From positions 1 to 24,524 of IMG/VR virus record IMGVR_UViG_3300010885_001479: a stretch of 24,524 bases of DNA; one strand, given 5' to 3'. Position 1 is the stretch's first letter. Each line of letters begins with the position of its first letter. The translations under genes and the position numbers were made by a program. The stretch is from a virus. Positions 5,968-24,524 of the stretch are shown here, piece by piece. The notes under the pieces were generated by a model. The model had not been told where the DNA came from. It searched no databases and saw nothing but the letters and a program-made list of their open reading frames with translations.

Positions 5968-5975
5968 AATTTATT

Positions 5976-6430: not shown

Positions 6431-6435
6431 ATATC

Positions 6436-6443
6436 ATAAATAT
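6436..6443 (-). promoter_or_regulatory. ATATTTAT motif, candidate phage promoter element (copy 3)
   Basis: ATATTTAT on the coding strand between gp17 and the frameshifted small gene, only 5 bases before the ATG at 6430. If it is a -10 element, the message would be essentially leaderless. Confidence 0.38.
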
Positions 6444-6468
6444 CGTAATTTAGTAAAACCCTACTATT

Positions 6469-8064: not shown

Positions 8065-8065
8065 A

Positions 8066-8749
8066 TTAGTCTTTAAGAGGTCTAACTAAATCGTAATTCT
8101 TATCTTTTAATTTATCGTAAGCCTCATTTCTTAATTTAGTAGCTTGTTCAATTTCACTTTCAAACTTAATAATTTCCAAAAGGATTTCTGCTTTAAGTTC
8201 TTCAACATCCCTTTCCATACTCCATTTTTCAATAGTACCATCTTCTTGAACAACTTCATAAGTTTGTTTTGCATCATTATATGCTTGTTTAAATTGAGCT
8301 ACGATATCTTTACCATGTGAAATCATATTAGAATATATTTTGTAATCTTCATATGCATCCCACAATCCATCTATTTGTATTTGAGATTCTTTTTTAACCA
8401 AACAAGTTAAACAATAACCAGTTTTAGATACTAACTTTTTATCATGTCTACTTAGTTTAATAGTTTTACAACCTTCTGCTTTACAACTATTTAACCTATC
8501 TAAATAAGCTCTAACTTCGGCCATAGTATCACCCAATTCGGATGTTTCTATTTTACCAGCTTCTAATTGCTCCCAAGATTTTCCATTATCATCTGTCCAT
8601 TTTTCACCAACCTTACGTTTTACAATTTCTTTATCTACTCCAGAAAATGATATTTGTGTGTTTTTTTCGTAATCACCACCAGTCAATACCATATCTACCA
8701 ACTTTCTACGTGTTGGATGCATAAACTTTTTGTTGAATTCCTTTGCCAT
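8066..8749 (-). CDS. Zinc-ribbon protein in the gp16 position, possible small terminase or packaging partner
   Basis: A 227-residue protein directly before gp17 (1-base gap), the place of the small terminase gp16 in T4. The N-terminus carries HPTRRKLVDMVLTGGDYEKN (11-30) and VGEKWTDDNGKSWEQLEAG (47-65). A CX4C-X18-CX2C zinc-ribbon pattern uses C89, C94, C113 and C116. Residues 165-225 are a long charged helix, probably coiled coil. T4 gp16 has a helix-turn-helix and coiled coils and, as far as I know, no zinc ribbon, so the equivalence is positional. A DNA-recognition factor for packaging or a late transcription protein are both possible. It is the first gene of the head operon, with a candidate host-type promoter at 8784-8812. 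Confidence 0.75.
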   Translation of the reverse strand: MAKEFNKKFMHPTRRKLVDMVLTGGDYEKNTQISFSGVDKEIVKRKVGEKWTDDNGKSWEQLEAGKIETSELGDTMAEVRAYLDRLNSCKAEGCKTIKLSRHDKKLVSKTGYCLTCLVKKESQIQIDGLWDAYEDYKIYSNMISHGKDIVAQFKQAYNDAKQTYEVVQEDGTIEKWSMERDVEELKAEILLEIIKFESEIEQATKLRNEAYDKLKDKNYDLVRPLKD

Positions 8750-8783
8750 ACTATATACGATATATTTGTATATATAAGTATAT

Positions 8784-8812
8784 CAAAATTAGGAAAACAA
8801 TTACTTTTCAAA
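8784..8812 (-). promoter_or_regulatory. Candidate Bacteroidota-type promoter for the head operon
   Basis: On the minus strand TTTG (8812-8809) is followed after 17 bases by TAATTTTG (8791-8784), matching the Bacteroidota -7 consensus TAnnTTTG with a TTG-type upstream box. The upstream box lies inside the end of the 1013-residue gene. A leader of about 30 bases would precede the ATG at 8749. The spacing is at the short end of the usual range and the DNA is AT-rich, so a chance match is possible. Confidence 0.35.
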
Positions 8813-11800
8813 GAAAATACCTAAAATTTGATTTAGTGGTGCGAATGCACCTGTTAATTTGTATGTGTTACCAGCATAGACAAATACAATACCTTCATTT
8901 GGTACAATCTTTTCAAACCCACCAAGTGCATTAAGTCTTTCTAACTCTAATTTTAATTTTGCAATCTTCTTAGGGTCACCACTTGCTTTTACTTGAGATA
9001 TTGTTGATTGTAAGCGAGCTACCATTTGCCTTTTGGCACTATCAGGGTTTGCTGTAAGAACCGAGTCCATAAAAGATAGTACATCGGCACCAACTCCTAA
9101 AAATATCTCCTCAAATCTCATTAGATTTTGCTTCCCTATCTTTTGTTGGTCTTGCTTATCAGTTTGTTCTGCCCAAGCTTTTAATTTTACATCAGTTATT
9201 TCTGCTATACGAAAACCCTTGTCACCAAAAGCCCATCTTTTTATTAATCCTATCTTTTGTTGATAATCTAATTTCTTAGCTTTCTTTTCCACAAAATCAG
9301 TCCACCAAGCTTGATGATAATCAGCCACACCATCACTATCAGAAAGATTAAATTCTTTTTGAAGTTTAGAAATCATTCCTAAATACTTTCCTTGTAGTTT
9401 AGAAAGGTGTTCTGATTTAGGAAGTTTATTAATTGGAGGTCCCTGTATTGTGTATTGTGATTGAACATGTGCATTTACTTGCTTAATCATTCCACCTAAT
9501 ATAGTTGCCGCTTGTTGGTTTTCACCTACAATAGTACCATCGATATCATAATCAAACGTACCATGAAATACCAATAGGGGTTGATTGTAAGGGATTACGT
9601 TTACAGAGGTTGGATATATTACTTCCAAATTCATAAACGAACTACCATCCTTAAATATCTTCTTACGTTGAGGTTCTGATAGGGATGCTATTGCTGCAGA
9701 TAAATCTTTCATAGCAAAATTGTAAGCGTCGGTCAACCCACCCCTACCAGCAAATTTATCTGCTACCTGTCCTATTGTCATAGCATCAGCTCCTTTGTTC
9801 TTTAGGTGTGATTTGTTACGAGCTGCAACCAATCTACCATTTACCCAACTAACTGCCAATGCTTGTCCATCAGTCTTCTCTCTTGCTAATTCCAAATCAC
9901 CATTCAATGCTCTTACCACAATTTGTTTTAAATCACCAAATGTAAGATTCATTTCAATATCAAATGGATGGTTCATATGTCCATAAGCCCCACCTTCGGT
10001 TAATAAAGATTCTTTAATAAAATCAGATGGAGATTTTAAACCATGCTTTAATATACGATTGTATTTATCAGTTGTATCGTTATGATTATCTATTGGTAAT
10101 TTTTGGTCTACTGCTTTTTTCTTTTCTCTTTCAGATGGAGTTTCATCAAAGAAATCCCAACCTTCTAAGTTATCTAAATAGTATCCTTCATTATCATAAT
10201 CATTCCAATTAGCATTCCATTGAGTACCAGTTGTTGAATTGCCATCATTATAGAAAGCACCATTACCACTTGCTTCAGCTATACTATCACCTTCTATACT
10301 TGCTAACTTTTGATAATAATTTAAATCTTCCCATAAATGGTCCATTGCTATTTCAGCTGCAATACGAACATCAGTTGTATGTTCCATTTCAACTTTAATA
10401 CCAGTTGTAAGATAATCTTTTATTTTAGAAAGCTCTACATTATATTTACTTGCTAAATCTTTAGTTGTTTTTTCTTTTGCTAAACCACCAGGAATTTTAT
10501 CAATCTGAACTGCTATTTCATCTATCTCCTCATATCCACTCATACCTTTATTGTTAAGTTTCTTACTATTCTTCTTAACATCTTTAGAATCAGGTGCTCC
10601 ATTGATATATCCACCCGGCAAACTCAAACCCACACCAGCCCCACCACCAAATCCCATCTCATCTAATAGTGCATCAAAATCAGAAACTATTTCTTTAATA
10701 TCTTCTTTTGAAATTATTGTATCTTTTTGATTTTTAGGAAGTTCCCAAAATCTTTTAGGTTTTTTTATTGATTTTTTAGGTTTTGTTTCTTGCCAATCTT
10801 CTGTTTTATGTGGGTCATCTGCTGGATTTAATGTACTTTGAACTACATTTTTTACTTTATATACTGCTTTTCTAAATTGAGTTTCGGTATCTTTTGATTT
10901 ACCCTTACCTCTCATAGCATCTGCTTTTGGTTTTTCTAATTGAACATACCCACCTTGCTTATACCAATTTTCAGGTTTAGCAGTATTTAATATTCTTTTT
11001 TGTCCATCAGCAACAAATGAAGTATCAGGCTCATCCCCTGCATTCATACCAGCATTGGATGCTGCTTCTTTTAATTCTTCTTTTTTAGGGATTCTAAATG
11101 TTACTGCTTTCTTACCATTAATTGTTGGCATTCCCCAATCATCAGTTCCTATTGTTTTTACAACTACTTTTTTGTTTTTAAATTTACCCATTAGTAAAGT
11201 ATCACCAACCTTTACATTTAGTTTTATTTCTTCATTGATACATTCTTTAAGTTTTTTCAACTTAAGAGTAATCATTTTAAAAATTTGGTCATCAAACTTT
11301 GGATATGCTTTTGTAAAATTCTTTTTTCTTTCAGCTGCATCTCCACTACTTAACCAATAACGGACATCAGTTCCACTAATAGGATTTGATTGTGAAGGTA
11401 CTGCATAGACATATCCTTTATCCAAATAAGGTTCAGTTACCTTACCTTTATATGGTGTAAAGTATTTACCACCCAAACGATTTTCATCTTTCTCACCAAC
11501 TACAACTATTAAACCAGTTGTATCCTCATCATATTTGTTTAGAATTTCAGATGGGGCATATGGATTTTTAACATTAACGATTTTAGATGATGGAATCCCA
11601 AACATCTTTGTCATTATTGCTTTCTTTTCAGAAAAATTAAATGGAGATTTATTGTTATCGGTAACGTTGGAAGTTCCTATAAAGACACTATCTTTACCAA
11701 ACTTATTTACCAAATGGTCATATGTTGCATAATGACCTTTATGAAATGGTTGAAAGCGGCCCGAATAGACAACAACTACTTTGTCCATTTGAGCTGCTTC

Positions 11801-11842
11801 TCCCAATATTGTTTCTATTAAAAATTTTGTTAATCCCTTCAT
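8801..11842 (-). CDS. NMN-adenylyltransferase-like / polynucleotide-ligase-like fusion, probable internal head protein
   Basis: A 1013-residue multidomain protein. Residues 1-15 (MKGLTKFLIETILGE) resemble the capsid-targeting peptides of T4 internal proteins and end in a possible LxE protease site. Residues 21-195 are a nucleotidyltransferase with GRFQPFHKGH (28-37, HxGH) and ISGTDVR (155-161), the NMNAT signature, which would make NAD from NMN and ATP. Residues 208-252 look like a small beta-barrel. Residues 480-517 (GIKVEMEHTTD, then DHLWEDLNYYQKL) resemble DUF5661. Residues 617-1013 carry covalent nucleotidyltransferase (ligase) motifs: KTDG (656-659, K656 nucleophile), R675, FMNLEVIYP (736-744, E740), EGIVF (983-987) and YKLTG (994-998). 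Whether it joins DNA or RNA cannot be told. The ligase part is preceded by FIKESLLTEGG, itself like a protein start, suggesting fusion of once separate proteins. Confidence 0.85.
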   Translation of the reverse strand: MKGLTKFLIETILGEAAQMDKVVVVYSGRFQPFHKGHYATYDHLVNKFGKDSVFIGTSNVTDNNKSPFNFSEKKAIMTKMFGIPSSKIVNVKNPYAPSEILNKYDEDTTGLIVVVGEKDENRLGGKYFTPYKGKVTEPYLDKGYVYAVPSQSNPISGTDVRYWLSSGDAAERKKNFTKAYPKFDDQIFKMITLKLKKLKECINEEIKLNVKVGDTLLMGKFKNKKVVVKTIGTDDWGMPTINGKKAVTFRIPKKEELKEAASNAGMNAGDEPDTSFVADGQKRILNTAKPENWYKQGGYVQLEKPKADAMRGKGKSKDTETQFRKAVYKVKNVVQSTLNPADDPHKTEDWQETKPKKSIKKPKRFWELPKNQKDTIISKEDIKEIVSDFDALLDEMGFGGGAGVGLSLPGGYINGAPDSKDVKKNSKKLNNKGMSGYEEIDEIAVQIDKIPGGLAKEKTTKDLASKYNVELSKIKDYLTTGIKVEMEHTTDVRIAAEIAMDHLWEDLNYYQKLASIEGDSIAEASGNGAFYNDGNSTTGTQWNANWNDYDNEGYYLDNLEGWDFFDETPSEREKKKAVDQKLPIDNHNDTTDKYNRILKHGLKSPSDFIKESLLTEGGAYGHMNHPFDIEMNLTFGDLKQIVVRALNGDLELAREKTDGQALAVSWVNGRLVAARNKSHLKNKGADAMTIGQVADKFAGRGGLTDAYNFAMKDLSAAIASLSEPQRKKIFKDGSSFMNLEVIYPTSVNVIPYNQPLLVFHGTFDYDIDGTIVGENQQAATILGGMIKQVNAHVQSQYTIQGPPINKLPKSEHLSKLQGKYLGMISKLQKEFNLSDSDGVADYHQAWWTDFVEKKAKKLDYQQKIGLIKRWAFGDKGFRIAEITDVKLKAWAEQTDKQDQQKIGKQNLMRFEEIFLGVGADVLSFMDSVLTANPDSAKRQMVARLQSTISQVKASGDPKKIAKLKLELERLNALGGFEKIVPNEGIVFVYAGNTYKLTGAFAPLNQILGIFFEK

Positions 11843-11876: not shown

Positions 11877-12278
11877 TTATTCTTTTACGACTTTCATACC
11901 AGTATTCGAATCAGCTGGTGTTTGTTCTCTCTGCATTTCAGCCATTTGCTTTCTTGTAGGAGCTCCTGGTTGATACTGAATCGTACCATCTTGCATATTG
12001 ATTCTTCCTTGTGGGAATTTTTCATCCAAACCATCGATAAACTCTCTTAATTGAGAATTTGCCATTTTGAATTCATCTTCTCCCTTTTCTAAAAAATCAT
12101 CCATTCTAACCACTTCGTCATTGATTTCCTTCTTGCGAATGTGGATTTGACCGAATTCAATGATTAATGCGTTAATCTTTTGATTAAGCTCTTGCATCGA
12201 TTTGAATACATCTGCATCTATTTTTGCAGTTTCAATCGTAATTTGTTGTTGCTGTGGGATGTTATCTAAGCTTGCCAT
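11877..12278 (-). CDS. Small coiled-coil protein, paralogue of the gene at 15681-15938
   Basis: A 133-residue soluble protein. Residues 20-90 form a long heptad-like helix (LNQKINALIIEFGQIHIRKK onwards), followed by LDEKFPQGRINMQDGTIQYQ (84-103) and a hydrophilic tail. The helix plus the (D/E)KKYP-type turn and the final YQ match the 85-residue protein on the other side of the glycosyltransferase pair: LNQKINALIIEFGQIHI against LNTRKNELIINTGQVHL, and EKFPQGRI against KKYPNGEI. This type of short coiled-coil protein occurs near structural genes in marine T4-like phages. A tail or baseplate accessory or a fibre-assembly role is possible but not shown. The start context AATAAATTATGGC is the same as that of the portal gene. 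Confidence 0.75.
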   Translation of the reverse strand: MASLDNIPQQQQITIETAKIDADVFKSMQELNQKINALIIEFGQIHIRKKEINDEVVRMDDFLEKGEDEFKMANSQLREFIDGLDEKFPQGRINMQDGTIQYQPGAPTRKQMAEMQREQTPADSNTGMKVVKE

Positions 12279-12321: not shown

Positions 12322-13467
12322 TTATAATATTTTTTCTAATTCTTTTATTACCTGTTCCGATGTTATTGATTTAGTACATTCAAAATGTCTATCCGTACCT
12401 TTATGGTCAGGACACCAATTCCAATCACCGGGATCTAATCGTACTCTATTGAAGCATCCTTCACACTTTCCTTTAGGTGGGGATATTCTGATACAATCTT
12501 TCATCTCCGCCCATTCATATGAAAATCCACTAATCAAAACAGTAGGAACATCCAAAGCCCAACTCAACCAACTCAAACCACTTCCAATTCCAATGAATGC
12601 TTTGGATTTTTTCATTTCATCTATTACTAATTCAAGTGGTCCATCTGGGTGCTTAACTATACCTTTTGGTAATTTATTACCCATATAATCATCACCTTCT
12701 TTTGATACTAATTTAACTGTGTATCCTTTTTTATTTAACCAATCTACTATATCTTGCCATCCAGTTGGGTTATTCCAAAATTTAGATTGTGCTGTACCAA
12801 ATACTCCAATACAAACTTGTTTAGTATTATCTGCTAAAATTTTCCTTTCTTTTATTTTTGGTTTTATTTCAACATAATCTAATCCTAAAATATCCGAACA
12901 CATTTTTTGCATTGTTTGATGCTTAGGGTCTTTTGGATTCTTATATACATTTATAGTATCATCCTCATTATAAAATAAACCAATACAATACATAGCATAT
13001 AGATTTGTAACATTTGTTCCAGGAGATACAAATTCTAATTCAGGATATTTTTCCTCAAACATATCGTTCATAAATGTAGATACTACAACTTTACAATTAT
13101 GTTTTTTTCTAAATTCATCTACATAGGCAAACCATGCTAAACTATCGCCCAATGCTTTTGAATCCAATGCAATATAAACTCTTTTATTTTCTGCATTATA
13201 AAGATATTCATACCAAAGTTTACCATCTTCAAATATTTCAATTTTCCATTCTACAAAATATTCAATATTACAACGTGTCCACATATTTGTAGATATATCA
13301 GATGAGAATAAAATTCTTCCAGTTTTATTATCTTTGAAATTAACTTTATAATTGCACTTATTTGCCCCTACTACTTCTACAAATGCACCTCTTACAAAAT
13401 TTAAATTAACTTTATTTTTAACTAAAGTTTTATTGTTTATATTTTTAACTAAATTATCGTAAATCAT
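12322..13467 (-). CDS. Autotransporter-type protein O-heptosyltransferase (TibC/Aah-like)
   Basis: A 381-residue protein from the ATG at 13467, chosen over an upstream TTG because that ATG shares one base with the preceding stop. It looks like the bacterial autotransporter heptosyltransferases, which put heptose on serines of beta-helical adhesins. Residues 10-90 form the beta-rich strand-loop-strand domain. VYIALDSKALGDSLAW (97-112) carries the conserved GD (D108). Then come the donor-site region with SKFWNNPTGWQ (228-238) and IGIGSGLSWLSWALDVP (292-308). Four cysteines, C335, C338, C352 and C364 (CEGC, NWC, FEC), match the iron-binding set of this family. No heptose-synthesis gene is in the window, so the donor must come from the host or elsewhere. 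Neighbours suggest that the acceptor is a virion protein such as the giant fibre. A related hexosyltransferase activity is possible. Confidence 0.85.
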   Translation of the reverse strand: MIYDNLVKNINNKTLVKNKVNLNFVRGAFVEVVGANKCNYKVNFKDNKTGRILFSSDISTNMWTRCNIEYFVEWKIEIFEDGKLWYEYLYNAENKRVYIALDSKALGDSLAWFAYVDEFRKKHNCKVVVSTFMNDMFEEKYPELEFVSPGTNVTNLYAMYCIGLFYNEDDTINVYKNPKDPKHQTMQKMCSDILGLDYVEIKPKIKERKILADNTKQVCIGVFGTAQSKFWNNPTGWQDIVDWLNKKGYTVKLVSKEGDDYMGNKLPKGIVKHPDGPLELVIDEMKKSKAFIGIGSGLSWLSWALDVPTVLISGFSYEWAEMKDCIRISPPKGKCEGCFNRVRLDPGDWNWCPDHKGTDRHFECTKSITSEQVIKELEKIL

Positions 13468-15638
13468 TAACTCCAAGTTTTAACTGTTAAATCTAATAAT
13501 GAAAATCCTTCTGCTTGTTTGCTATACATTTTATTAGTAGTGTATCTATTTTTAGGATGATTATAAAATACGTGATTGTACCACAAATCACCAACATCCC
13601 AACCACAATCTTTTATTCTATCTAACCACCATCCTTTGGTTCTATTTGGTATTAGATATGCATGTGCAAGGTCTTGGTTGTATGCAGTTTTAGTAAATAG
13701 TTCATCTATTTTTGTTTTTTCCCTAGATGGATTATCAGCCAATCCAATAAAATAAACATCATCTCTTTCTGATATAAAACATGCTTTATGTACTATATCA
13801 ACAAATTCTTCTAAACCAGTATAGATGAATGCATCAGCTTCAAATATTAAAGTATAATCAAAATTTTCAGTATCCATTGTTTCCAATGCATTTCTATGTG
13901 CCAAATAGCATCCATAATGTCTACCAGTCATCCAACCCAATCCAGCACCAGGATATAATTCACCAGGCTTATTATCTTTACTTATATGTTCGGGCCTTCT
14001 ACAATTTTCAGCTGGTGCCAATCCTTCATATACTTCATTTACAATAGGTTGATAAACCATTCCATATTTTTCCAATTGCTTAAGAGATTCAATTGATACA
14101 ATCTCTCTCATATCATCAGGTCTAGTCAACATATGTTTAATTTGAATTCTAGGTTTCTTTCTTACAAAAGAACGGAATCCTTTATGGGTTTGATTGTAAA
14201 AGTATTCATCTGCCGCTTGAGTAACTCCTTGAAATACACCATAATCATCACCACTAATAACTCCACCTGGTTTTACTTTATTATACCAAATATTTAAATC
14301 TTCCATTAATGCTTCATATGAATGACCGGCATCAATCATAATAAAATCTATACTATTATTTTGAAATTGATTTGCTGCATTCTTTGATGTATCTTTTATA
14401 CTTTTAAAAACTCCACGATTTCCTGAAAGTAATGTGTTATCTAAAAATTCATAATAGATATCTCCGTTAAATGCTCCTACTATATTTTGGTGTAAGTCTT
14501 CATCATCAGTTCCTTTCCAAGTATCAACACAAGTGAAATCAATATTCTTATTTGATTCTCTTATTTTGGTTGCTAAATGATTTGTTGATTTACCAAACCA
14601 AGAACCAACTTCAACAAAAGTTTCTCCTCCATTTGCATTATCTACAATTGTATTATATAATTCGGAGTATGCAAACCAACCAGGAATTTCATTAAATTCA
14701 GGTTGTAAGGTTTCTAATATAGTTCTTTTGGTTAATTTTAAATCATCATTAATATAAGTTACTAATGAATTATTATCGTATGTATCTAAGTATGTGTGTA
14801 ACTTTCTAAATATAGAAGGCATCTTATAAGATAATGCTTCTTTAACTGATAATGGATTTAGTTCTAATATAGATGAAAAATAGAACATATCACAAGCTGC
14901 GTAAAATGTATCTACATCATTTCTTTCTCCCCAAACAACACAATTATCAGGTTTAAATTTCATCAATGGCTCCCAATAATTTTGAAAATTCATAGCTTGG
15001 TTTCCTACGAAATGAAATTTAATTTTATATTTTTCTAATTGTCTTGCTATTGAAAATATTTCACCTTGATTTTTTCCAGATGAAAATAATCCTACGTTAA
15101 GTACGTGTTTCCAAGTTGGGTCTAATTCTAATTCCTTTTGTGCAGCTTCTTTATCAAATACATAATCTTCAATTGGATATTGCCATACATCAGTTTCAAC
15201 ACCAAGTCCTTCAAAACGTTGTCTACTCCATTCAGATACCAAAACGTACTTATCAGGATGATAAATTATATCCTGTGGGTTTGTGAACGAACCATGCGTT
15301 GAACATATAATAAAGTAATTTCTATTTGGAGAAAATATCTTTTCAACTATCTCTAATTGTAAATCAAATTGTGGTATTTCCTGAAAATGAATTATATCGG
15401 GTTTAAATTCTTTAATTAAATTTAATATCTCCGCCTTATCATCTCCCAATGTTTTTACAGGAACCAATGCTTTGATTCTATTTTTTTGAACTACAAAAGC
15501 ATCCCCACCACTATTATTTATTTCAATGACTTGTATTTCAAAATCATTTATAAAATGTGTTATCTGCTTGTATGTGTATTGTGGTTGCCCTCCAGTAGAT
15601 AAATGGGGACATACATAAAGTAACTTTTTCTTTGTCAT
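13467..15638 (-). CDS. Three-domain glycan enzyme: GT4 glycosyltransferase, methyltransferase, GT25-like glycosyltransferase
   Basis: A 723-residue protein from the ATG at 15638 (MTKKKLLYVCPHL). A TTG four codons earlier is rejected because it lies within the promoter -7 box. Residues 1-315 are a GT-B glycosyltransferase of family 4: GGQPQYTYKQI near the N-terminus, NVGLFSSGKNQ (181-191) and the E-x7-E element in ELNPLSVKEAL (E259 and E267). Residues 325-500 are a class I SAM methyltransferase of the Methyltransf_24 type: VEVGSWFGKST (342-352), DFTCVDTW (367-374) and IDAGHSYEALMEDLN (435-449). Residues 510-723 resemble GT25: GCYLAHRNALE (576-586) and the acidic FEADAF (599-604). All three domains look intact. 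The logical product is a short, possibly O-methylated glycan on a virion protein or surface polymer. The substrate is unknown. Confidence 0.85.
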   Translation of the reverse strand: MTKKKLLYVCPHLSTGGQPQYTYKQITHFINDFEIQVIEINNSGGDAFVVQKNRIKALVPVKTLGDDKAEILNLIKEFKPDIIHFQEIPQFDLQLEIVEKIFSPNRNYFIICSTHGSFTNPQDIIYHPDKYVLVSEWSRQRFEGLGVETDVWQYPIEDYVFDKEAAQKELELDPTWKHVLNVGLFSSGKNQGEIFSIARQLEKYKIKFHFVGNQAMNFQNYWEPLMKFKPDNCVVWGERNDVDTFYAACDMFYFSSILELNPLSVKEALSYKMPSIFRKLHTYLDTYDNNSLVTYINDDLKLTKRTILETLQPEFNEIPGWFAYSELYNTIVDNANGGETFVEVGSWFGKSTNHLATKIRESNKNIDFTCVDTWKGTDDEDLHQNIVGAFNGDIYYEFLDNTLLSGNRGVFKSIKDTSKNAANQFQNNSIDFIMIDAGHSYEALMEDLNIWYNKVKPGGVISGDDYGVFQGVTQAADEYFYNQTHKGFRSFVRKKPRIQIKHMLTRPDDMREIVSIESLKQLEKYGMVYQPIVNEVYEGLAPAENCRRPEHISKDNKPGELYPGAGLGWMTGRHYGCYLAHRNALETMDTENFDYTLIFEADAFIYTGLEEFVDIVHKACFISERDDVYFIGLADNPSREKTKIDELFTKTAYNQDLAHAYLIPNRTKGWWLDRIKDCGWDVGDLWYNHVFYNHPKNRYTTNKMYSKQAEGFSLLDLTVKTWS

Positions 15639-15647
15639 AAATTGTAA

Positions 15648-15678
15648 CAAATATACGAATAATTTTTCAATTATCCAA
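15648..15678 (-). promoter_or_regulatory. Bacteroidota-type promoter for the glycosylation pair
   Basis: On the minus strand TTG (15678-15676), 20 bases, then TATATTTG (15655-15648). This matches the Bacteroidota primary-sigma consensus TTG-N(19-21)-TAnnTTTG in both boxes and in spacing. It fills the gap between the 85-residue gene and the three-domain glycan enzyme, whose ATG is at 15638, so the message would have a very short leader. It is the cleanest host-type promoter in the window. Confidence 0.6.
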
Positions 15679-15680
15679 AT

Positions 15681-15938
15681 TTATTTTTGGTAAACTACGA
15701 TTCCTTCCACTAAGTCGATTTCACCATTTGGGTATTTCTTTTCAAAATCAGATAAAATTGTGTTCATTTCTTTACTTGTTTGCTGAAATTCCACTTCTAA
15801 CATAGTTAAAACTCTTTCCAATTCAGTTATATCTAAATGAACCTGACCAGTGTTTATAATTAGTTCGTTTTTTCTTGTGTTTAGTTGTCTTAGTTTTTCA
15901 ACTACGGATTCTTCTAATTTTTCTGTATGCTTTTCCAT
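15681..15938 (-). CDS. Small coiled-coil protein, paralogue of the gene at 11877-12278
   Basis: An 85-residue protein, nearly all helix (residues 5-70), ending KKYPNGEIDLVEGIVVYQK. It is clearly related to the 133-residue protein at 11877-12278 but lacks that protein's N-terminal 18 residues and hydrophilic C-terminal tail. It lies between the giant fibre and the glycosylation pair. A role with the fibre (assembly partner, trimerising helix or baseplate accessory) is possible from position only. The start follows a palindrome of 16 A/T bases and has no Shine-Dalgarno sequence. Confidence 0.75.
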   Translation of the reverse strand: MEKHTEKLEESVVEKLRQLNTRKNELIINTGQVHLDITELERVLTMLEVEFQQTSKEMNTILSDFEKKYPNGEIDLVEGIVVYQK

Positions 15939-15943
15939 ATTAT

Positions 15944-15959
15944 TATTTATATATAAATA
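15944..15959. repeat. Perfect 16-bp palindrome TATTTATATATAAATA
   Basis: Perfectly self-complementary and composed only of A and T. It lies 5 bases before the start of the 85-residue gene and overlaps the ATATTTAT motif. It may be an operator, a cruciform-prone site or just low-complexity DNA. Confidence 0.35.
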
Positions 15960-15960
15960 T
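15953..15960 (-). promoter_or_regulatory. ATATTTAT motif, candidate phage promoter element (copy 5)
   Basis: ATATTTAT on the coding strand, 14 bases before the start at 15938 and partly inside the 16-bp palindrome. This gap is the most A/T-rich, so this copy is the least informative of the six. Confidence 0.33.
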
Positions 15961-15971
15961 ATACTTTATTT

Positions 15972-18900
15972 TTAAGAACTCAATTTATTTTCTAAATCTT
16001 TAACTTTTTGTGTTAATTCTTGTACTGCCTTCCACAATACAAATACTAATTCTTGCTTAGCAATACCAGAAGTCATCCATTTTTTAGGTCCGTCTGGATT
16101 ATCAGGATCTTCAAACCAATCATAATCCACATATTCTTCCAATCCACCCGCTTCCAATTCTTCAGCAATTATACCTATTTGTTGTGGTCTTTTTTCTGCA
16201 TCTTTATCAATTTTCCAATAATAAGTCCTTATTGGTACGTTATTCACAGCATCTAATATAGATGGATGTTGCCAATCTTCTATTTCTTCTTTAAATCTTC
16301 TTGCAGATGTATTTCTACCTACTCTCCAAGTAGATAATGATATTTCCATACCTCTAATAGTACCACCACCGGGACTACCAACATTATTTAATATAATTGC
16401 GGGTCTAATTCCACCATCACTATAAGTTGTTATGTATCCTGCGAAAATCCCACCAGTATTCCAACTTATAGCACCAGAACCCAATTCAATATTATTACCA
16501 TTCATAGCAATTTTACCAGTACTAGCTGCTATATTAATGGCAGTACCATTTGATGTACCACTCAATTGAATCATTGAATTTGAAGTATCCCCTACAAGTG
16601 ATATAAATCCTTTCCCATCCAACAATGGTGTAGATATACTATCTTCTCGTCTTAATCTAATATATCTATTAGCAGATGTTGCAATTTGAATACCTTTGTT
16701 TGTTAATTCAACAACGTTTAAGTTTGCAACTGATGAAATTGATGGAGTAGCTGTTCCAAAGCTGATATTTAAATAATCAGAGCCACCACCACCATAATAT
16801 CCAGCAACGTAGTTATAACCTGAAGCAATAAAGAATGTTTTAAAAGTATATGATGTTGATGCTGCATTGGGTGGAGAGAATTGAAAAGTTCCCGTATAAC
16901 CAGAAATGGTTGCGTAACTATCATCAGGACCACCATTCCAATATGTAGAGCCTATTGTTACTTCAGAAATTAAAGTTGCCCCTTCGTAAATTCTATATCC
17001 CCAATACAAATCCAAATTACCACCTCTACGAAATGCATCAACTACAGTACCAGGAGATGGCCATACCACAGATGAATCTACATAAGTACCTCCCGGAACA
17101 CTAAAAGTTTGTCCAGTACTTTCCACCTCTATATTTATACCAACAGAAGCTGCTGGAGATTGATATTCAGAAAGATATTCTGCTGATAAATTTATAGCTC
17201 CTCCGGCTAAATCAGTTAATTCTCCAAAGTTTACTTTAAGACGTGTTTCACCACTTTCTTTGATTGCCATACCAGGTAAAGATGGGTCAAAGAAAATTCT
17301 ACTAGTACTATCTCTTAAATTACCAGTATCAGAATCTACCGTCCAGTTACCAATACTACCATTATTAGCATTAATTGTACCAGCTATACTTGCATTTGTT
17401 ACTGATAATCCAGAAGAATTTAAAAGAAATCCAGGTCCACTTAAAATACCACCGCCCATACTAATTTGATTGGGCGCTGTTCCAACTAAAACAGAACCAG
17501 CAAATGTACCAGTTGCCGCAGATATATCTCCAGCAAATGAACCATTAGCTGCTGATAACGTTCCTTTAAAGAATGCATCTCCAGTTGTATCTATATAAAA
17601 ATTCTTTGAGTGTATTGAACCAGCTGCTGCTAATGTAATACCTGCACCTGGGTTATATCCACTAAGATTTTTAGTACCACTATATATTGCATCAGATGCC
17701 AATTCCCATCCTCCTACTTCTCCCGAATCATGTGAATCACCATTATCAAATGCACCAACTTTACCACCATCTCTCGCAGTTGATGTATTTTTGATTCTTA
17801 TATTACCAGCAATTTCTAATGCAGAACCATCCCATTTAAGAAATCTATCACCTGCCCCATTTACAATTGAAAATCTACCAGTAGTACCACCAGAGCCAAT
17901 AGGTTGTTCATATATTCCTAAAAATATACCAGGTCTTTCGTAACCAATAACCGCCCCACCTGGGTTTAGTGATGTACCAGAAGTACCAGCCGAACCAACA
18001 GTTGCGTTTTGACCTATAGCGATATATGGGTCAGTTCTACCACCAGCAATTACAATATTAGCAAATGCACCAGTACCATTTTTAGTACCAACGTTAATTG
18101 TATTCTTAACATATGACTCTTCAAATATTGCAATCTTAGCTGCTACAAAGAATTCTTCCTGTCCTAAAAATTGCCACCAATCATTATCACCATCAACAGT
18201 TGGAGCATGATATCCAACCGGCTGACTATTATTATCATTCGTTGCTGGGCCACTTCCACTAATTGCTGCGTAATATTTTACAGTATCCGTTGTTGCTAAG
18301 TAGGTAACCGCATCTCTACGATTGTTTGAAGTTTCTACCGAACCTATATAATCAATCGATGGCGACCATTCACCTCTCATAACAATACCAGGTCCAGTTG
18401 CTCCTTCAAATTGTACTGATATTGATTGTGTTTTATAAAGTGTTTGTCTACCTTCACAATTAATTCCATAAACAATCTCACCAGTTAAATTTGTTTCAGG
18501 ACTATCCCATGCAGAAATACCTGCCATTGATGCTTGTGAACCAGGTAATTTACTACCAACAATTAATCCACCTAATAAAGTTAAGTGAGATGATATAGAT
18601 GTAATTTCAACCTGGCATTGTTGTTCGTAAGATGAACTACCATATGCATCTATTACAACTCCAGTAAATCCAGAAGGTTTGTTTGTTAATTCATAATTAC
18701 CTCTATATGCTCTGATAATGTTTGAAGTAGTTCCCAATTCAACTTCACCAGATACTCTATAAACAATAGATGTATTTTCATTTTGCATCTTAGCATCATA
18801 TGGGGCAGGTTCGGTAAATTGTACAGCAAATGATTGTGTTACAAATTGAACTTGTCTATTATCTTCAAAATCAACTTTATAAACAATTTCTCCTGTTTTA

Positions 18901-21900
18901 TTTATAGCCGGCTTATCCCAAAAAGTTAAGTTACCAATTGTTGCTGGATTTGATGTTGGAAATTTAGTTCCCGCCATAGTAATCCAAGAAGATTTTGAAT
19001 ATATAGATGCTGATGAAAATCCTAAATTTCCAATATAACTACCTAAATAATCATAAACATTGTTTGCTGCATTATATGTACCTGCATTTACATTTGTTAA
19101 TTGAGTTATTCCTTTAAACGTGGTAATCTTCATACCAGTACCAGAAAGATTTGTATTAAACAAAGTAGCTGATACAGATGTATTATCATTACTAGATACT
19201 ATTTTATATGCATCTGCTCCAGCTTTTATACCTGCTATTGTTAATTGAGCTTCTGCTCTAACAGGTTTATTTCCAGCTGCTATTGGTGAATTTCCATCAG
19301 AATCACCATCCCAAATTTTTACTTTCCAAGTTTTATTTTCACCTGGCCCAGCAGCATCAGAACCCCCAACTGAAATAGATGACTCCTTTGAATTTGGTGT
19401 CGTTTCAGGATCAGGTCCTTGATATGGAACTTCACTTCCATCATAATCAATATAGTACCATCTATAAAAAACAGAACCAGTTGTATTAAATGCAGTTGCC
19501 GTTAATGTGATATCTCCTTCAGGTTCAGTAACAACTCCATCTCTATTATAGTTTACAGTATAAGATGATGCTTTAAAATCTACCGAACGAGCATTTGGAG
19601 GTGCTACTGTTTTTGTAAATGTTTGTGTTCTAGTGTATATAGAAGATGTATATTCATGTCCAGGTCCTAAAGAATATGGGAATACTTCAATTGTATAAAA
19701 TGCACTTGCCGAAACATATGGATAATCAAATCTATTAAATGTTACATTTGCTCCCAAATTATTAAGAGAACTCGTCAATGAACCTGTTCTTATATTATAT
19801 AAATTTAAAGAACTACTTGTTTCTAATTTATTTACTTTCCAAGTACCTGGTTTTCTAGATTGAGAATAAAATAATGTATCATCACCTTCTCTTACTTGTA
19901 TAGATGTATTAGCTGATGAATAATTTACAGGTGTAACATATCCAACTTCATCAGCTTTCAATGCAGATACCAATGGATTTATTAAAATTTGAATTGGTTG
20001 TGGGCCATCTAATACTTTTGTATATTGTTGTACAACACTTGCTGTGTAAACTGAAGAAGTATAATATGGTTGAATCTCCAATGGATATCTAATACTTCCA
20101 CTTAGATTTACCATATTGTAAGATGCACTTACTATTAAAGATTCGGTATATGCATTATCAAAATAAATAAGACCACCAGTAATATTTTGTGCAATAATTG
20201 ATGCAGTTGCTATATGGAATGTACCAGGTTTTCTACTACCAGTAAATGCCAAATATCTTGAACCTTGCTTTAATTTTATTTCAGTAATAGTTGGTTTATA
20301 ATCATTTACAATTCCTTTTGAATTTGCAGCCAATGTTACATTAGCTGGATTGACTTCAAAAATAATACTTTCATCTCCCGGTTTACCATCAGGTATAATT
20401 TGAAACAGATGGTCTACTGAAACAGAAGCAGAAGTCCAAGGTTCAGTATAAACAAAACTAGTCAATAATTGTTTAGTTTGTTGTAATCTATTACCTAATC
20501 TATATGTTGCCGCATTTGCTCTAGATGGAATTATATTACCAGCTTCATCATAAGCAACAACACTAATAGTTGGGTCACAACTATGAGTAACGTATTGAAT
20601 CCAATACTCAGGAACAAAATCGTTATTTATTGACATTGATGGATATACTTCAAACGAACAACTTAATGGAGAATCAAATTGACCTCTACGGAAAAATGAT
20701 GCAGTTGCCGATGAAAATATAGGTCTGAATTTGGTTTCGGTTCTTGGGTTTATATTAAATGTATCCGCATCATATAATACAACACCAGCATCCAAACCAT
20801 CTTGTAAATCAGTTAGTGTTATTGCTGTTAAAATAGATGCCGATGGATTTACTGAACCAGTTGGTATCAAATACAATGTTCTCTGACCATCGATGGAATC
20901 TCTATTAAAAATTGCATTATAGTTTATTTGACCAGAACCAGTTATACCAGGCTTAACACCCCTAACCCATTGAGATGCCGATGCATCTTGTAGTGTGATA
21001 TATTTAGAACCGGATTGAACGTGTAATATAATAGATGAACGCCCAGCAGGCAAACCACTTCTTAATTTAATTTCATTAATACCGTCAATACGAATAGCTT
21101 GTACTTCCAATGCTGACGATGAATCAGAGTTTCTAATTACAGTTCCATTATAAGGTCTAATCTCATAATTAACACCACCCTTACCATCTATTACTCTTGT
21201 AATTACAATACTATCTTCAACTCCTTCACATTCAGCAGTGTACTCAATATATTGTACAACAATTTCTTCTAAATTTGGGTCTCTTGAACCTGTGAAGTTT
21301 TGTACAGTTAAATAAGGTCTATCGGTATTTATGTCATTTAATTGACCAGGAAATTTCCACCAATTATAACCAGGTGTTACAGTTGTAGAATATTGCGAAG
21401 ATGATAATTCATTATTGAAAAAATCAAATGAACGTGAAGTAAAATGAACCGAACCAGTTAAATAACTTTTTACAACATCTATAAAAATTGTATTAGGTGG
21501 GACTGGGTTACCATTACCAGAACCAGAATCAAATTGAAAATATAAAGCCGATGGTATTAATTGTAAATCTTTATTAATACGATTTAAGTTTCCACCATCA
21601 AATGTTTTTGATTCTTCTACAACAACAGGAATATAATTGTTATTTATATCATAAAATTGAAATAAGAAATCAAATGTTTCCTTTGGTAAAGTTCTTGGTA
21701 TTGGTTGAATAAAAGATATCTCATCAGGAGAGAATGAACTTTCTTGAGATGCTCTTAAACTAATATCAGATATGTACCAATCATTACCTTTTACTTCAAA
21801 GTAAAGTTTTGCATTAGAAAAGCTGTCAGCTTTAAAGTTTGCTGTAATTTGTGATTTTTGTAAAATAGATGAATCTTCGGTAACAGTAACTATTGATTGT

Positions 21901-23228
21901 TGTACACCTGTTGTTTGTGTTATTCCTGCGTATGAAGATTGTCTAGAACCACTAATAAAAACTTTTAAATAATCAGATGTATTTATTGTTTGATTACCAA
22001 GTCTAACATTAAAAGTTAATGTATATTCAGCACCATCAGTCAATGCCATAGATTTTGATGTAAAATAATTATTTACACCAGTACTATTTAATTTAACCGA
22101 ATTAAATAAATAAGTTTGATTAAATTGAGTTGTTACATTATTTGATGAAGTAACCCAATATGATTTAAAATTTGTATTATCAAACAAACCATAGAATTCT
22201 TCATTTTTTGTTGTTGATTCTAAATCTTTTAACAATTCATTAGATTCCAATTGAATTTCTTGTATGAATTGATAATCAGCTAAATCCGATTGAGATTTTC
22301 TAAATATTTTAACTCTAGCACAATCTCCAACAAATGTAGTTAAATCACTTAATGTTATTGTAGCAAACGAACCAGTTAAGGCTGTTTTTAAATTATCAAC
22401 ACCCTCCACATAATTAAATGATGCTGTATATCTTTGATTTGAAAAGTCTTGAACGATTCCATTTATAGTATATGGATTTACTACAGTTAAATCAGTTTTA
22501 CTTATAACATCATCTGCTTTAGATATAAATCCCAAATCAGTAAATTCAATATCAGTACCTACCACAGATCCAGTCCAAGCACCACCATCATTTATTTGAA
22601 TTAAATAATTAGTTGGTAATGTATAATCTGTAAGTTTTTCTCCCTGCGATGGTACTTGTGCAAATCCATCTACAAATCCTTTTTGAACAACTGGTGCAAC
22701 TATGTTTGCGAATATTGGTTTAACTATTTCATTTATTGTTACTTGAGGTCTGCGATAGAATCTAACCTTATCTTCATTTGATATTAATCTATTTACTTTA
22801 AATTCCTTTTCCCACTTTACATTATATACACCTTTCCATTCGTCTGGAACATCTCTTACAACACCGCCCTCATCTATATAAGTTTTTAATTCACCAAGAA
22901 CAGTTATTTTTGCTTGACCGATTGGAGTATCTTCATAAACATAAACAGCAACAAGTTTAGAAACACCCTCATAATATTCAGGAACACCATTACCAGGTTC
23001 ATAATAAATAGAATTACCATTTACATCTAACATTTGAATCTTTATTTCAGTAGATTCCATTAAATGTTGAGAACCTTCTATTAAGAATCCGTTTTTGCCA
23101 CCTGTAAATGTATCTTTAAACTCTGTTATTCTAAAGTATGTAGATGTTGGCGCCGTATCAACTAAAAAGGTTTGAAACGATGTCAAATTTTGAGTTAATG
23201 TCTCTGCGTATTTTTTTATTACTGCCAT
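15972..23228 (-). CDS. Giant tail fibre / receptor-binding protein with C-terminal S74 self-cleaving chaperone
   Basis: A 2418-residue structural protein, rich in S, T, G, N and beta strands. The N-terminal 170 residues look like an attachment region (FLIEGSQHLMESTEIKIQML, ITVLGELKTYIDE). The middle is built of beta-sandwich-like repeats. One pair repeats SRKPGT at about residues 998 and 1124; another repeats TGEIVY at about 1443 and 1580. Around 1617 a GEWSPSIDY stretch looks like a small carbohydrate-binding-type module. About 1800-1970 is a shaft with GTLSAANGSFAGDIS-type repeats. The last 111 residues are the S74 intramolecular chaperone: SARRFKE with S2308 and K2313 as the Ser-Lys dyad, IGIIAEEL, and a final helix. 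It trimerises the fibre and then cuts itself off. Ser/Thr-rich beta repeats are plausible acceptors for the nearby glycosyltransferases. Confidence 0.92.
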   Translation of the reverse strand: MAVIKKYAETLTQNLTSFQTFLVDTAPTSTYFRITEFKDTFTGGKNGFLIEGSQHLMESTEIKIQMLDVNGNSIYYEPGNGVPEYYEGVSKLVAVYVYEDTPIGQAKITVLGELKTYIDEGGVVRDVPDEWKGVYNVKWEKEFKVNRLISNEDKVRFYRRPQVTINEIVKPIFANIVAPVVQKGFVDGFAQVPSQGEKLTDYTLPTNYLIQINDGGAWTGSVVGTDIEFTDLGFISKADDVISKTDLTVVNPYTINGIVQDFSNQRYTASFNYVEGVDNLKTALTGSFATITLSDLTTFVGDCARVKIFRKSQSDLADYQFIQEIQLESNELLKDLESTTKNEEFYGLFDNTNFKSYWVTSSNNVTTQFNQTYLFNSVKLNSTGVNNYFTSKSMALTDGAEYTLTFNVRLGNQTINTSDYLKVFISGSRQSSYAGITQTTGVQQSIVTVTEDSSILQKSQITANFKADSFSNAKLYFEVKGNDWYISDISLRASQESSFSPDEISFIQPIPRTLPKETFDFLFQFYDINNNYIPVVVEESKTFDGGNLNRINKDLQLIPSALYFQFDSGSGNGNPVPPNTIFIDVVKSYLTGSVHFTSRSFDFFNNELSSSQYSTTVTPGYNWWKFPGQLNDINTDRPYLTVQNFTGSRDPNLEEIVVQYIEYTAECEGVEDSIVITRVIDGKGGVNYEIRPYNGTVIRNSDSSSALEVQAIRIDGINEIKLRSGLPAGRSSIILHVQSGSKYITLQDASASQWVRGVKPGITGSGQINYNAIFNRDSIDGQRTLYLIPTGSVNPSASILTAITLTDLQDGLDAGVVLYDADTFNINPRTETKFRPIFSSATASFFRRGQFDSPLSCSFEVYPSMSINNDFVPEYWIQYVTHSCDPTISVVAYDEAGNIIPSRANAATYRLGNRLQQTKQLLTSFVYTEPWTSASVSVDHLFQIIPDGKPGDESIIFEVNPANVTLAANSKGIVNDYKPTITEIKLKQGSRYLAFTGSRKPGTFHIATASIIAQNITGGLIYFDNAYTESLIVSASYNMVNLSGSIRYPLEIQPYYTSSVYTASVVQQYTKVLDGPQPIQILINPLVSALKADEVGYVTPVNYSSANTSIQVREGDDTLFYSQSRKPGTWKVNKLETSSSLNLYNIRTGSLTSSLNNLGANVTFNRFDYPYVSASAFYTIEVFPYSLGPGHEYTSSIYTRTQTFTKTVAPPNARSVDFKASSYTVNYNRDGVVTEPEGDITLTATAFNTTGSVFYRWYYIDYDGSEVPYQGPDPETTPNSKESSISVGGSDAAGPGENKTWKVKIWDGDSDGNSPIAAGNKPVRAEAQLTIAGIKAGADAYKIVSSNDNTSVSATLFNTNLSGTGMKITTFKGITQLTNVNAGTYNAANNVYDYLGSYIGNLGFSSASIYSKSSWITMAGTKFPTSNPATIGNLTFWDKPAINKTGEIVYKVDFEDNRQVQFVTQSFAVQFTEPAPYDAKMQNENTSIVYRVSGEVELGTTSNIIRAYRGNYELTNKPSGFTGVVIDAYGSSSYEQQCQVEITSISSHLTLLGGLIVGSKLPGSQASMAGISAWDSPETNLTGEIVYGINCEGRQTLYKTQSISVQFEGATGPGIVMRGEWSPSIDYIGSVETSNNRRDAVTYLATTDTVKYYAAISGSGPATNDNNSQPVGYHAPTVDGDNDWWQFLGQEEFFVAAKIAIFEESYVKNTINVGTKNGTGAFANIVIAGGRTDPYIAIGQNATVGSAGTSGTSLNPGGAVIGYERPGIFLGIYEQPIGSGGTTGRFSIVNGAGDRFLKWDGSALEIAGNIRIKNTSTARDGGKVGAFDNGDSHDSGEVGGWELASDAIYSGTKNLSGYNPGAGITLAAAGSIHSKNFYIDTTGDAFFKGTLSAANGSFAGDISAATGTFAGSVLVGTAPNQISMGGGILSGPGFLLNSSGLSVTNASIAGTINANNGSIGNWTVDSDTGNLRDSTSRIFFDPSLPGMAIKESGETRLKVNFGELTDLAGGAINLSAEYLSEYQSPAASVGINIEVESTGQTFSVPGGTYVDSSVVWPSPGTVVDAFRRGGNLDLYWGYRIYEGATLISEVTIGSTYWNGGPDDSYATISGYTGTFQFSPPNAASTSYTFKTFFIASGYNYVAGYYGGGGSDYLNISFGTATPSISSVANLNVVELTNKGIQIATSANRYIRLRREDSISTPLLDGKGFISLVGDTSNSMIQLSGTSNGTAINIAASTGKIAMNGNNIELGSGAISWNTGGIFAGYITTYSDGGIRPAIILNNVGSPGGGTIRGMEISLSTWRVGRNTSARRFKEEIEDWQHPSILDAVNNVPIRTYYWKIDKDAEKRPQQIGIIAEELEAGGLEEYVDYDWFEDPDNPDGPKKWMTSGIAKQELVFVLWKAVQELTQKVKDLENKLSS

Positions 23229-23319: not shown

Positions 23320-23493
23320 ATGAAGAAGTACGCAATGATACAAATTGATAGTGAAATTCACCAAATATTAAAAGAATTTTGCAAAGAAAAGGGATATAAG
23401 ATAAACGGATTGGTTGAGACCCTTATAAAAGAAAAGGTGGAATCCTCAAAGAAGACCCCACCTAAAAATGTATTACCAGTTGTTAGAAGTTAA
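23320..23493 (+). CDS. Small ribbon-helix-helix-like DNA-binding protein
   Basis: A 57-residue protein, the only plus-strand gene recognised. A beta strand (KKYAMIQIDS, 2-11) is followed by helix A (EIHQILKEFCKEKG, 12-25), a turn (YKIN) and helix B (GLVETLIKEKVE, 30-41). This is the layout of MetJ/Arc-type repressors, which dimerise through the strand and insert it into the major groove. A basic, proline-containing tail follows. It is transcribed away from the fibre gene across a 91-base gap, and its last 11 bases overlap the end of the gp46-like gene convergently. The tandem repeats just before it could be its own operator. It could also be an early regulator of late genes. DNA binding is inferred from the fold pattern. 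Confidence 0.75.
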   Translation: MKKYAMIQIDSEIHQILKEFCKEKGYKINGLVETLIKEKVESSKKTPPKNVLPVVRS

Positions 23494-24524
23494 TTTTAGA
23501 AAATCCTTCTACTTTTTTAATTTCAATAAGTCCATCCACAATATCTCGCATTTGTTCTAAATGGGAAATTACCCAAATGAAATCAAATTGAGTTTTAAGA
23601 TATTGCATCATCATAAATAATGAAGATAGGTTATCTGCATCCAATGTTCCAAACCCTTCATCGATTACTAAGAAGTTAGGTCTTGGTAGGTTGCATATGT
23701 TAATTAGAGCCACTCTAATCGCTAATCCACTAATGAACTTCTCCATACCACTACACATCTCTAAAGCCCATTCCTGGTCTTCGTAAACGATTCTAGCGTT
23801 AATGTTCTTTCCATCGGTATCCATTGAGATTGAGAAGTCTACTACTTGTCCTAATATATTGTTCACTTCGTTTTCAATTGCTGGAAGTGCCTTAGATATT
23901 AACTCATAAGGTACGCCATCTTTCTTAACTGCATCTAAGTAGAATGTATATAATTGGTTTTTACTTTCCAATTCTTTTACTTCCTCCATCTTAGCTACCA
24001 TATTATCAATGTAGGTTTTTGTTGCTCCTACCTCTGACATTAATTTCAACATAAGTTTGTTCACATCAGATATTTGCTTTTCTACACCTTGCTTTAATCT
24101 ACGAACATTTTGTATTTGAATATCTAATGCTTGATTCTTTGTAATTGTTTCTACATTATCATTATATCGTTTAATATCTGCATTTACAGTTTCGTTTTGA
24201 GTTTGTAATAATTCAATTTTAGAATCTGCTGTTCTGATGTCCGCTTCTAATCGTTCTCTAACTATAACCAATCGTTTGTACTCATCGGTCCATTCTTTCC
24301 ATCCTTTGAATTGGTCTTCTACACCTTCCCAAGAATCTAAAGTTTGTTGAATACCCGTACATTGTATAGTTGCATTTTTAACAAACCCTTCCAATTCAGG
24401 TAATGCTTCTTTTGCTCTCATTGCATCTTTAACAAATTCATTATCGCAACAAAACTTACAATTTGGGTCATATTCATGCTTATCCAAATGATTAATCTTT
24501 TCTTTAGCAGAATCTAATTGTGAC
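23483..24524 (-). CDS. gp46: Recombination endonuclease subunit gp46-like (Rad50/SbcC family), C-terminal part
   Basis: The reading frame is open to the right edge (upstream residues SQLDSAKEKINH precede a TTG at 24487 that is not a real start), so the N-terminal ATPase half lies outside. About 346 residues are visible. A CxxC (CKFCC, just after HEYDPN) is the zinc hook at the tip of the coiled coil. The returning coiled-coil arm spans about the next 190 residues. Near the C-terminus are the ABC signature CSGMEKFISGLAIRVAL, Walker B FLVIDEGFGTLD with its D-loop, and the switch histidine in VISHLEQMRD. With gp47 it would form the Mre11-Rad50-like nuclease that makes 3' ends for recombination-dependent replication and can degrade host DNA. 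The 3' end overlaps the plus-strand regulator by 11 bases. Confidence 0.93.
   Translation of the reverse strand, partial: SQLDSAKEKINHLDKHEYDPNCKFCCDNEFVKDAMRAKEALPELEGFVKNATIQCTGIQQTLDSWEGVEDQFKGWKEWTDEYKRLVIVRERLEADIRTADSKIELLQTQNETVNADIKRYNDNVETITKNQALDIQIQNVRRLKQGVEKQISDVNKLMLKLMSEVGATKTYIDNMVAKMEEVKELESKNQLYTFYLDAVKKDGVPYELISKALPAIENEVNNILGQVVDFSISMDTDGKNINARIVYEDQEWALEMCSGMEKFISGLAIRVALINICNLPRPNFLVIDEGFGTLDADNLSSLFMMMQYLKTQFDFIWVISHLEQMRDIVDGLIEIKKVEGFSKINF

Follow-up and report, generated by a model that had tools for sequence, protein, structure and literature searches.

A candidate virion O-glycosylation cassette built on a TibC-type heptosyltransferase in a freshwater T4-like phage, and the linkage of related enzymes to GTSG collagen-like proteins

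The window analyzed in this study is the whole 24,524-base stretch of the IMG/VR record IMGVR_UViG_3300010885_001479, one fragment of a freshwater T4-like phage, in which the gene for a TibC/Aah-type O-heptosyltransferase (HepT) lies next to the gene for a three-domain glycan enzyme (GMG). We consider these two genes, with a probability of about 0.6, to form the central part of a cassette for O-glycosylation of the virion, in which HepT would prime the serines and threonines of GTSG fibre repeats whereas GMG would extend the sugar and may methylate it. In the proposed mechanism, heptose would be transferred from ADP-(D,D-)heptose to Ser/Thr in the G-S/T-S (‘GTSG’) collagen-like repeats of the giant fibres of the phage, and further sugars would then be added through the GT4 and GT25 domains of GMG with possible methylation of the glycan. 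The donor would be made by HldE1/HldE2-like enzymes encoded behind HepT in about one third of the relatives and would otherwise come from the host, as in the window. The acceptors in the window lineage would be giant virion open reading frames (ORFs) of up to ~4,700 residues located 22-60 kb downstream of HepT, and the window's own acceptor is probably outside the fragment. Glycans carried on the virion in this way might provide a stiff or protease-proof fibre, affect host binding or shield the particle.

HepT scored 290.6 bits (E 1.7e-86) against the TIGR04414 family (hepto_Aah_TibC), which has a curated cut-off of 200 bits, and matched the TibC structure 4rap in the PDB (E 5.8e-53). All fifteen phage records tested also exceeded this cut-off. 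The AlphaFold2 model of HepT (pLDDT 83) contains both the N-terminal beta-barrel and the GT-B core of the TibC fold, and was found by Foldseek to resemble 4rap/4rb4 with a TM score of 0.81 (E 1e-30; 374 columns for 4rap). The four iron-site cysteines (C338, C341, C355 and C367) and Asp111 are invariant in the phage and bacterial relatives (alignments of 11 and 13 sequences) and align with the iron-finger cysteines C339/342/358/370 and the catalytic D110 of TibC (PMC4358343). Judged by sequence and predicted fold, HepT is thus a true member of the TibC family, as the first-pass annotation of the window had proposed, and so a relative of the enzyme that glycosylates surface adhesins of E. coli. 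The likely start of HepT is the ATG at 13467, which shares one base with the stop codon of GMG (TAATG); this overlap suggests coupled translation.

The same comparisons bear on two other roles for the cassette. One is that the enzymes alter the host surface polysaccharide (lipopolysaccharide (LPS) or O-chain) against superinfection, as the GT4, GT25 and HldE families work in LPS synthesis and phage glycosyltransferases beside tail fibres were so interpreted in a study on pelagimyophage host-recognition regions (PMC7029224). We regard this as quite unlikely. HepT belongs to a protein-modifying family and falls below the NCBIfam cut-offs of the WaaC/WaaF/WaaQ equivalogs, with WaaC/WaaF matches staying at or below about 27 bits (heptsyl_trn_I, 27.1 bits against 185.3), and LPS heptosyltransferase structures reach a TM score of only about 0.5 with the model compared to 0.81 for TibC. 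HepT also lies inside a structural module, and its bacterial homologues adjoin secreted GTSG proteins rather than LPS loci. The other role, glycosylation of phage DNA as a base hypermodification, is often performed by phage glycosyltransferases (PMC12619734). It appears very improbable here given the TibC-family fold with its protein-substrate iron finger, the absence of a base-modification gene in the window and the secreted proteins next to the bacterial homologues.

The window enzyme was found on a branch separate from the known bacterial autotransporter heptosyltransferases (BAHTs). TibC and the classical BAHTs form a clade with 100/100 support that excludes the window enzyme, which is instead placed within a phage clade of equal support (100/100) together with the HepT of phage contig L068. 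The linkage to GTSG proteins is clearest in the bacteria carrying non-classical enzymes. A gene with a GTSG array occurs within 10 kb of the enzyme gene in all ten non-classical bacterial loci, nine of them within 2.5 kb, whereas none of the 35 classical loci has one (Fisher 3e-10). The TIGR04415 repeat shows the opposite distribution, being absent from the ten genomes with non-classical enzymes and present in eleven of the twelve genomes with classical ones. Most of the non-classical genomes, which are 2.6-4.9 Mb in size, contain only one to three ORFs with collagen hits (chance of such proximity 0.002-0.005 each). The HepT neighbours are small secreted or lipoprotein-like GTSG-repeat proteins and were observed in Methylobacter, Methylomicrobium, Polaromonas and several gammaproteobacteria. 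These loci are partly dependent as five loci from gammaproteobacterial metagenome-assembled genomes (MAGs) form one group; they still represent no fewer than two separate clades and several families. A scan of 369 genomes of the same class yielded only two cases, both already known, indicating that this branch is rare in cellular genomes. Three MAG contigs labelled as bacterial (L105, L106 and L109; Rickettsiaceae, Flavobacteriales and Bacteroidetes) carry phage-like HepT fusions together with GTSG fibres and are probably misbinned phages.

Searches of viral contigs found 78 close loci and, with a profile, at least 580 stretches, so enzymes of the TibC type are frequent in aquatic phages. Among phages outside the window family, GTSG arrays were present in the locus in 16 of 26 clusters, and in a fresh phage sample, consisting of clusters with less than 80% identity to the first sample, in 23 of 28. 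In the window lineage the arrays are more distant. No GTSG array occurs within the 24.5-kb window, and GTSG ORFs were found in those window-family contigs that extend at least 22 kb past HepT (G001, G003, G014, G030 and G032). These ORFs lie 22-60 kb downstream of HepT and encode giant proteins such as, in G001, one of 4,539 residues containing an unbroken run of 271 triplets and, in G032, one of 4,590 residues. A scan anchored on the tail sheath located GTSG ORFs upstream of the sheath in contigs that end before HepT, about 60 kb away. The isolated relative immuto, which lacks HepT and has a complete genome of 160 kb, was found to have no GTSG array; this is a single case, consistent with the link but weak.

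Several side observations concern these genes. Virion ORFs of 4,500-4,800 residues occur at G001:74294-87913 and 90014-104167 (L087-L089) and at G032:35541-49313 and 50235-64721, and some of them hold uninterrupted runs of as many as 271 G-X-Y triplets. Ghost ORFs rich in Pro, Glu, Val and Leu (L115:8621-9052, L114:7788-8546 and L116:3750-4370) are antisense reads of GTSG genes, and gene finders may hide GTSG proteins through such calls. A 436-kb phage contig (G007) contains two TibC-type heptosyltransferases (160218-161354 and 278601-279659), one of which is 33% identical to that of the window.

The cultured Microcystis phage Mel-JY01 combines these features. Its heptosyltransferase is part of a single 1,226-residue GT4-methyltransferase-HepT protein annotated as ‘methyltransferase FkbM’. 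A homologue of the window fibre (24.5% identity over the first 540 residues) with 202 GTSG-type triplets is encoded in this phage, and the fusion enzyme follows one gene later. The annotated minus-strand gene at 739-2298 of L080 (PP395634.1) is antisense to the GTSG repeats and is probably spurious. The true gene is likely a plus-strand fibre ORF of 1,788 residues that runs across the ends of the record (L417, record positions 187762-190001), with a C-terminus annotated separately as 2519-3052.

The second enzyme of the cassette matches Glycos_transf_1 (2e-9) and Methyltransf_24 (4e-20) in Pfam. Its GT25 match is weak (7.6e-4) and below the cut-off, and this assignment was kept because the homologue L074:5607-7271 scores above the cut-off (4.5e-7). 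The partner of HepT is a glycan enzyme, as the first-pass annotation had proposed, with a GT4-methyltransferase-GT25-like fusion. Homologues of the GMG domains adjoin HepT in other phages. Among unrelated phages, which differ in their terminase and other genes, 31 of 41 clusters have a homologue of the GT4 domain close to HepT, and HepT itself frequently forms the C-terminus of a longer enzyme.

Candidate genes for the donor were found directly behind HepT. In 47 of 143 phage loci, a 129-residue gene with the HldE domain II (heptose-1-phosphate adenylyltransferase) as its best NCBIfam match starts at the HepT stop codon or close to it; a 250-residue HldE domain I-like kinase comes next in 35 of these 47. 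In many relatives, HldE2-like or HldE2- and HldE1-like genes are located between HepT and cc133, the small coiled-coil gene that flanks HepT in the window. From its sequence, the HldE1/HldE2-like pair would correspond to the kinase and adenylyltransferase steps leading to ADP-D,D-heptose, which is the donor of TibC (PMC4358343). Viral heptose enzymes that are functional, but for which no role was known, were described in 2024 (PMC11461863, PMC11573728). The 1,013-residue NadM-like protein of the window was considered as an ADP-heptose synthase and rejected, as its GRFQPFHKGH motif and the NadM matches of its Mel-JY01 homologue indicate an NMN adenylyltransferase and not an HldE enzyme.

A number of observations weigh against the proposed virion O-glycosylation of GTSG repeats. 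The HldE-like genes match TIGR02198/TIGR02199 with E values of 1e-26 to 1e-34 (90-117 bits), below the cut-offs of 345 and 181.5, which leaves their exact activity uncertain, and the window itself has no HldE genes, so that the donor would have to come from the host. Ten of the 26 first-sample clusters have no array in the locus, several of them with short flanks. In the window family it is the fibre that adjoins HepT, and the arrays of G001 and G032 are at 41-48 kb from it, a distance no shorter than that of random positions. Collagen matches were absent from twelve HepT-less relatives collected by their terminase large subunit (terL), an uninformative result since most of these contigs stop short of the GTSG region; of these relatives, only the presence of the fibre N-terminus in the absence of HepT was used as evidence. 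The nearness of HepT to arrays in phages could also partly reflect a shared host-recognition region of fibre and glycan genes. By an estimate from the array positions, roughly 11-25% of random positions in long HepT-positive contigs have an array at a distance of 10 kb or less, and the random-position fraction for HepT-array nearness outside the window family was 0.07-0.21. Taken to its full extent, this would mean that the phage link is only co-location in a plastic host-recognition region and that the acceptor is another virion or host protein, as might be expected from the frequency of GTSG arrays in the tail-fibre regions of these phages and from the distance of the window-family HepT to them. 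We assign a low probability to such co-location. It does not account for the bacterial loci, where genomes of several megabases have very few GTSG genes and one of these adjoins HepT, and it leaves the absence of TIGR04415 from those same genomes unexplained.

The first-pass annotation had named a different acceptor, namely the giant Ser/Thr-rich fibre encoded upstream of GMG, the beta-repeats of which were thought to replace the autotransporter. The 2,418-residue fibre with its S74 domain is real, although its Ser+Thr content of 18.9% is ordinary for a fibre; the other proteins of the window have 6-15% and other fibres of these phages 19-22%. No TIGR04415 O-heptosylation repeats were found in the fibre (no NCBIfam match at E<=1), and none of eighteen phage records scored above the cut-off of this family. 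The fibre also has no GTSG array, with only two isolated GTSG/GTTG motifs, and residues 1470-2418 were modelled by AlphaFold at low confidence (pLDDT 44). Furthermore, the N-terminal ~680 residues of the fibre were found beside the SMC gene of relatives lacking both HepT and GMG (G058, G059 and G060), so the fibre is independent of the enzymes. The later repeats of the fibre are not conserved in these three relatives and may still be modified in the window phage. The proposal that the beta-repeats are the acceptor is thus not upheld.

That HepT and GMG glycosylate mainly this adjacent fibre, with no role for the GTSG proteins, is improbable in our assessment. The conserved fibre-cc85-GMG-HepT-cc133 order in dozens of contigs (cc85 being a second small coiled-coil gene) speaks for such a role, and so do the homologous fibre near the enzymes in Mel-JY01, which itself contains GTSG arrays, and the short GTSG arrays in the fibres of three window-family contigs (L009, L017 and L033), the only fibres of this lineage with arrays. 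Set against this are the absence of TIGR04415 and GTSG repeats from the window fibre and its occurrence in part in enzyme-less relatives, the collagen-like fibre adjoining the same HepT clade in L068, and the bacterial relatives that have GTSG proteins only and no such fibre. The adjacent fibre may be a secondary acceptor. Gene pairs without a comparable fibre, which the first-pass annotation had regarded as decisive against its proposal, do exist in the literal sense, as in L068, L074 and L076 the fibre next to the enzyme is of the GTSG collagen-like type. A Ser/Thr-rich surface protein is still usually nearby, and the consistent feature is the GTSG array. The wider idea of virion self-glycosylation remains the best reading because a TibC-family enzyme and a glycan-enzyme partner track virion fibre genes across unrelated phages, while the acceptor originally named for it is probably wrong. 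The acceptor class proposed here probably differs from both the TibC paradigm and the adjacent fibre.

All the main genes of the window are on the minus strand (Table 1), including the three named in the first-pass annotation, at the positions given there. They are arranged in the order SMC/gp46-like, fibre, cc85, GMG, HepT, cc133, NadM-like, terminase, portal and prohead genes. The terminase, portal and head genes downstream show that the cassette belongs to the structural module of a T4-like phage. The fibre-cc85-GMG-HepT-cc133-NadM-terL order is kept in the window's own lineage, and its conservation across dozens of related contigs indicates that this gene block is not a chance arrangement.

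Table 1. Positions of the cassette genes and their neighbours in the window, and of the HldE-like genes in related contigs.
Feature	Position	Strand	Description
HepT	12322..13467	-	TibC/Aah-type O-heptosyltransferase; 381 aa from ATG at 13467; ORF open to TTG at 13476 (12322-13476, 384 aa)
GMG	13467..15650	-	727 aa; fusion of GT4 (aa ~5-320), methyltransferase (~335-490) and GT25-like (~497-722) domains; Pfam and domain homologues
cc85	15681..15938	-	Small coiled-coil protein between fibre and GMG; place kept in relatives; paralogue of cc133 (~26% identity)
cc133	11877..12278	-	Second small coiled-coil protein; 43-bp gap to HepT in the window
Virion fibre	15972..23228	-	2,418 aa; C-terminal Peptidase_S74 intramolecular chaperone (Pfam 2.4e-7)
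SMC/gp46-like recombination protein	23483..24523	-	Cut by window end; upstream neighbour of fibre; Pfam; same order in G001 and other relatives
Head/packaging genes	4198..11842	-	NadM-like 1,013-aa protein, g8066, terminase large subunit, portal; PHROG terminase and portal matches, CTP_transf_like (Pfam), synteny
HldE2-like and HldE1-like genes	L180:11143-12277; L028:3114-4239; L176:11149-12283		Directly behind HepT

Other genes were observed around the cassette. The two coiled-coil proteins of the window belong to a family of 80-130 residues with an end like YPNGEIDL..G that is found on either side of the glycosyl cassette in window-family phages, and small proteins of similar appearance are encoded close to HepT or fibre genes of unrelated phages (L199:13230-13472, L202:7361-7612 and L192:11439-11693). 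Some window-family phages have mucin-like ORFs between the fibre and the glycosyl genes (L052:4287-5654, L062:3617-5722 and L066:6115-7464) with the motifs TTTTTTEAPTTTTTT, PTPAPTPA and PTPPSPTP. A 665-residue protein beside the cassette in L052 (5672-7669) and L049 (939-2936) resembles, by reading of its sequence, a glycosyltransferase joined to a radical-SAM domain.

Several known systems share features with this cassette. The TibC/Aah BAHTs (TIGR04414) have the same family, fold, iron-finger cysteines and catalytic Asp, and a shared ADP-heptose donor is suggested by the HldE-like genes next to HepT in relatives. However, the window enzyme is on a separate branch, is linked to GTSG proteins instead of an autotransporter or TIGR04415 repeat, and in phages is joined by GT4, methyltransferase and GT25 partners, often in one polypeptide. 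The closest tested precedent is SgtA of Clostridioides difficile, which is encoded beside bclA3 and primes Thr of collagen repeats with GlcNAc (PMC7157674). Both systems have a glycosyltransferase gene by a collagen-like protein, but SgtA uses UDP-GlcNAc whereas the enzyme here is a TibC-type heptosyltransferase found mainly in phages. Mycobacteriophages are similar in placing glycans on their own virion proteins; going by the citation of Freeman et al. 2023 in PMC12619734, the sites there are capsid and tail-tube C-termini and the enzymes are different. The viral NDP-heptose enzymes of Tang et al. 2024, as relayed in PMC11461863 and PMC11573728, likewise include HldE-type genes able to make ADP-heptose; their role is left open in these accounts, whereas the genes described here lie directly behind a heptosyltransferase gene. 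In the pelagimyophage cluster, likewise from T4-like aquatic phages, glycosyltransferases and rfaE accompany tail fibres and collagen repeats; the authors read it as host O-chain modification, and a TibC-type enzyme is not named in the relevant portions of that paper (PMC7029224). In a literature search, no earlier description linking heptosyltransferases, collagen-like proteins and glycosylation was found, and phages are not mentioned in the 2014 TibC paper (PMC4358343).

Beyond the window, it is an even bet that a second, largely viral branch of the TibC family O-heptosylates GTSG collagen-like repeats, and that aquatic phages use this branch, along with ADP-heptose genes of their own and a GT4-methyltransferase-GT25 enzyme for extension, to produce heavily glycosylated collagen-like virion fibres. 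If this is true, the viral NDP-heptose enzymes reported in 2024 (PMC11573728) would gain a function, and a virulence-associated glycosylation family would have a separate substrate class. It would also identify the likely modification of GTSG collagen-like fibres, a protein motif that ranks among the most repetitive in aquatic phages, and would define a new class of O-glycosylated structural protein common to phages and bacteria.

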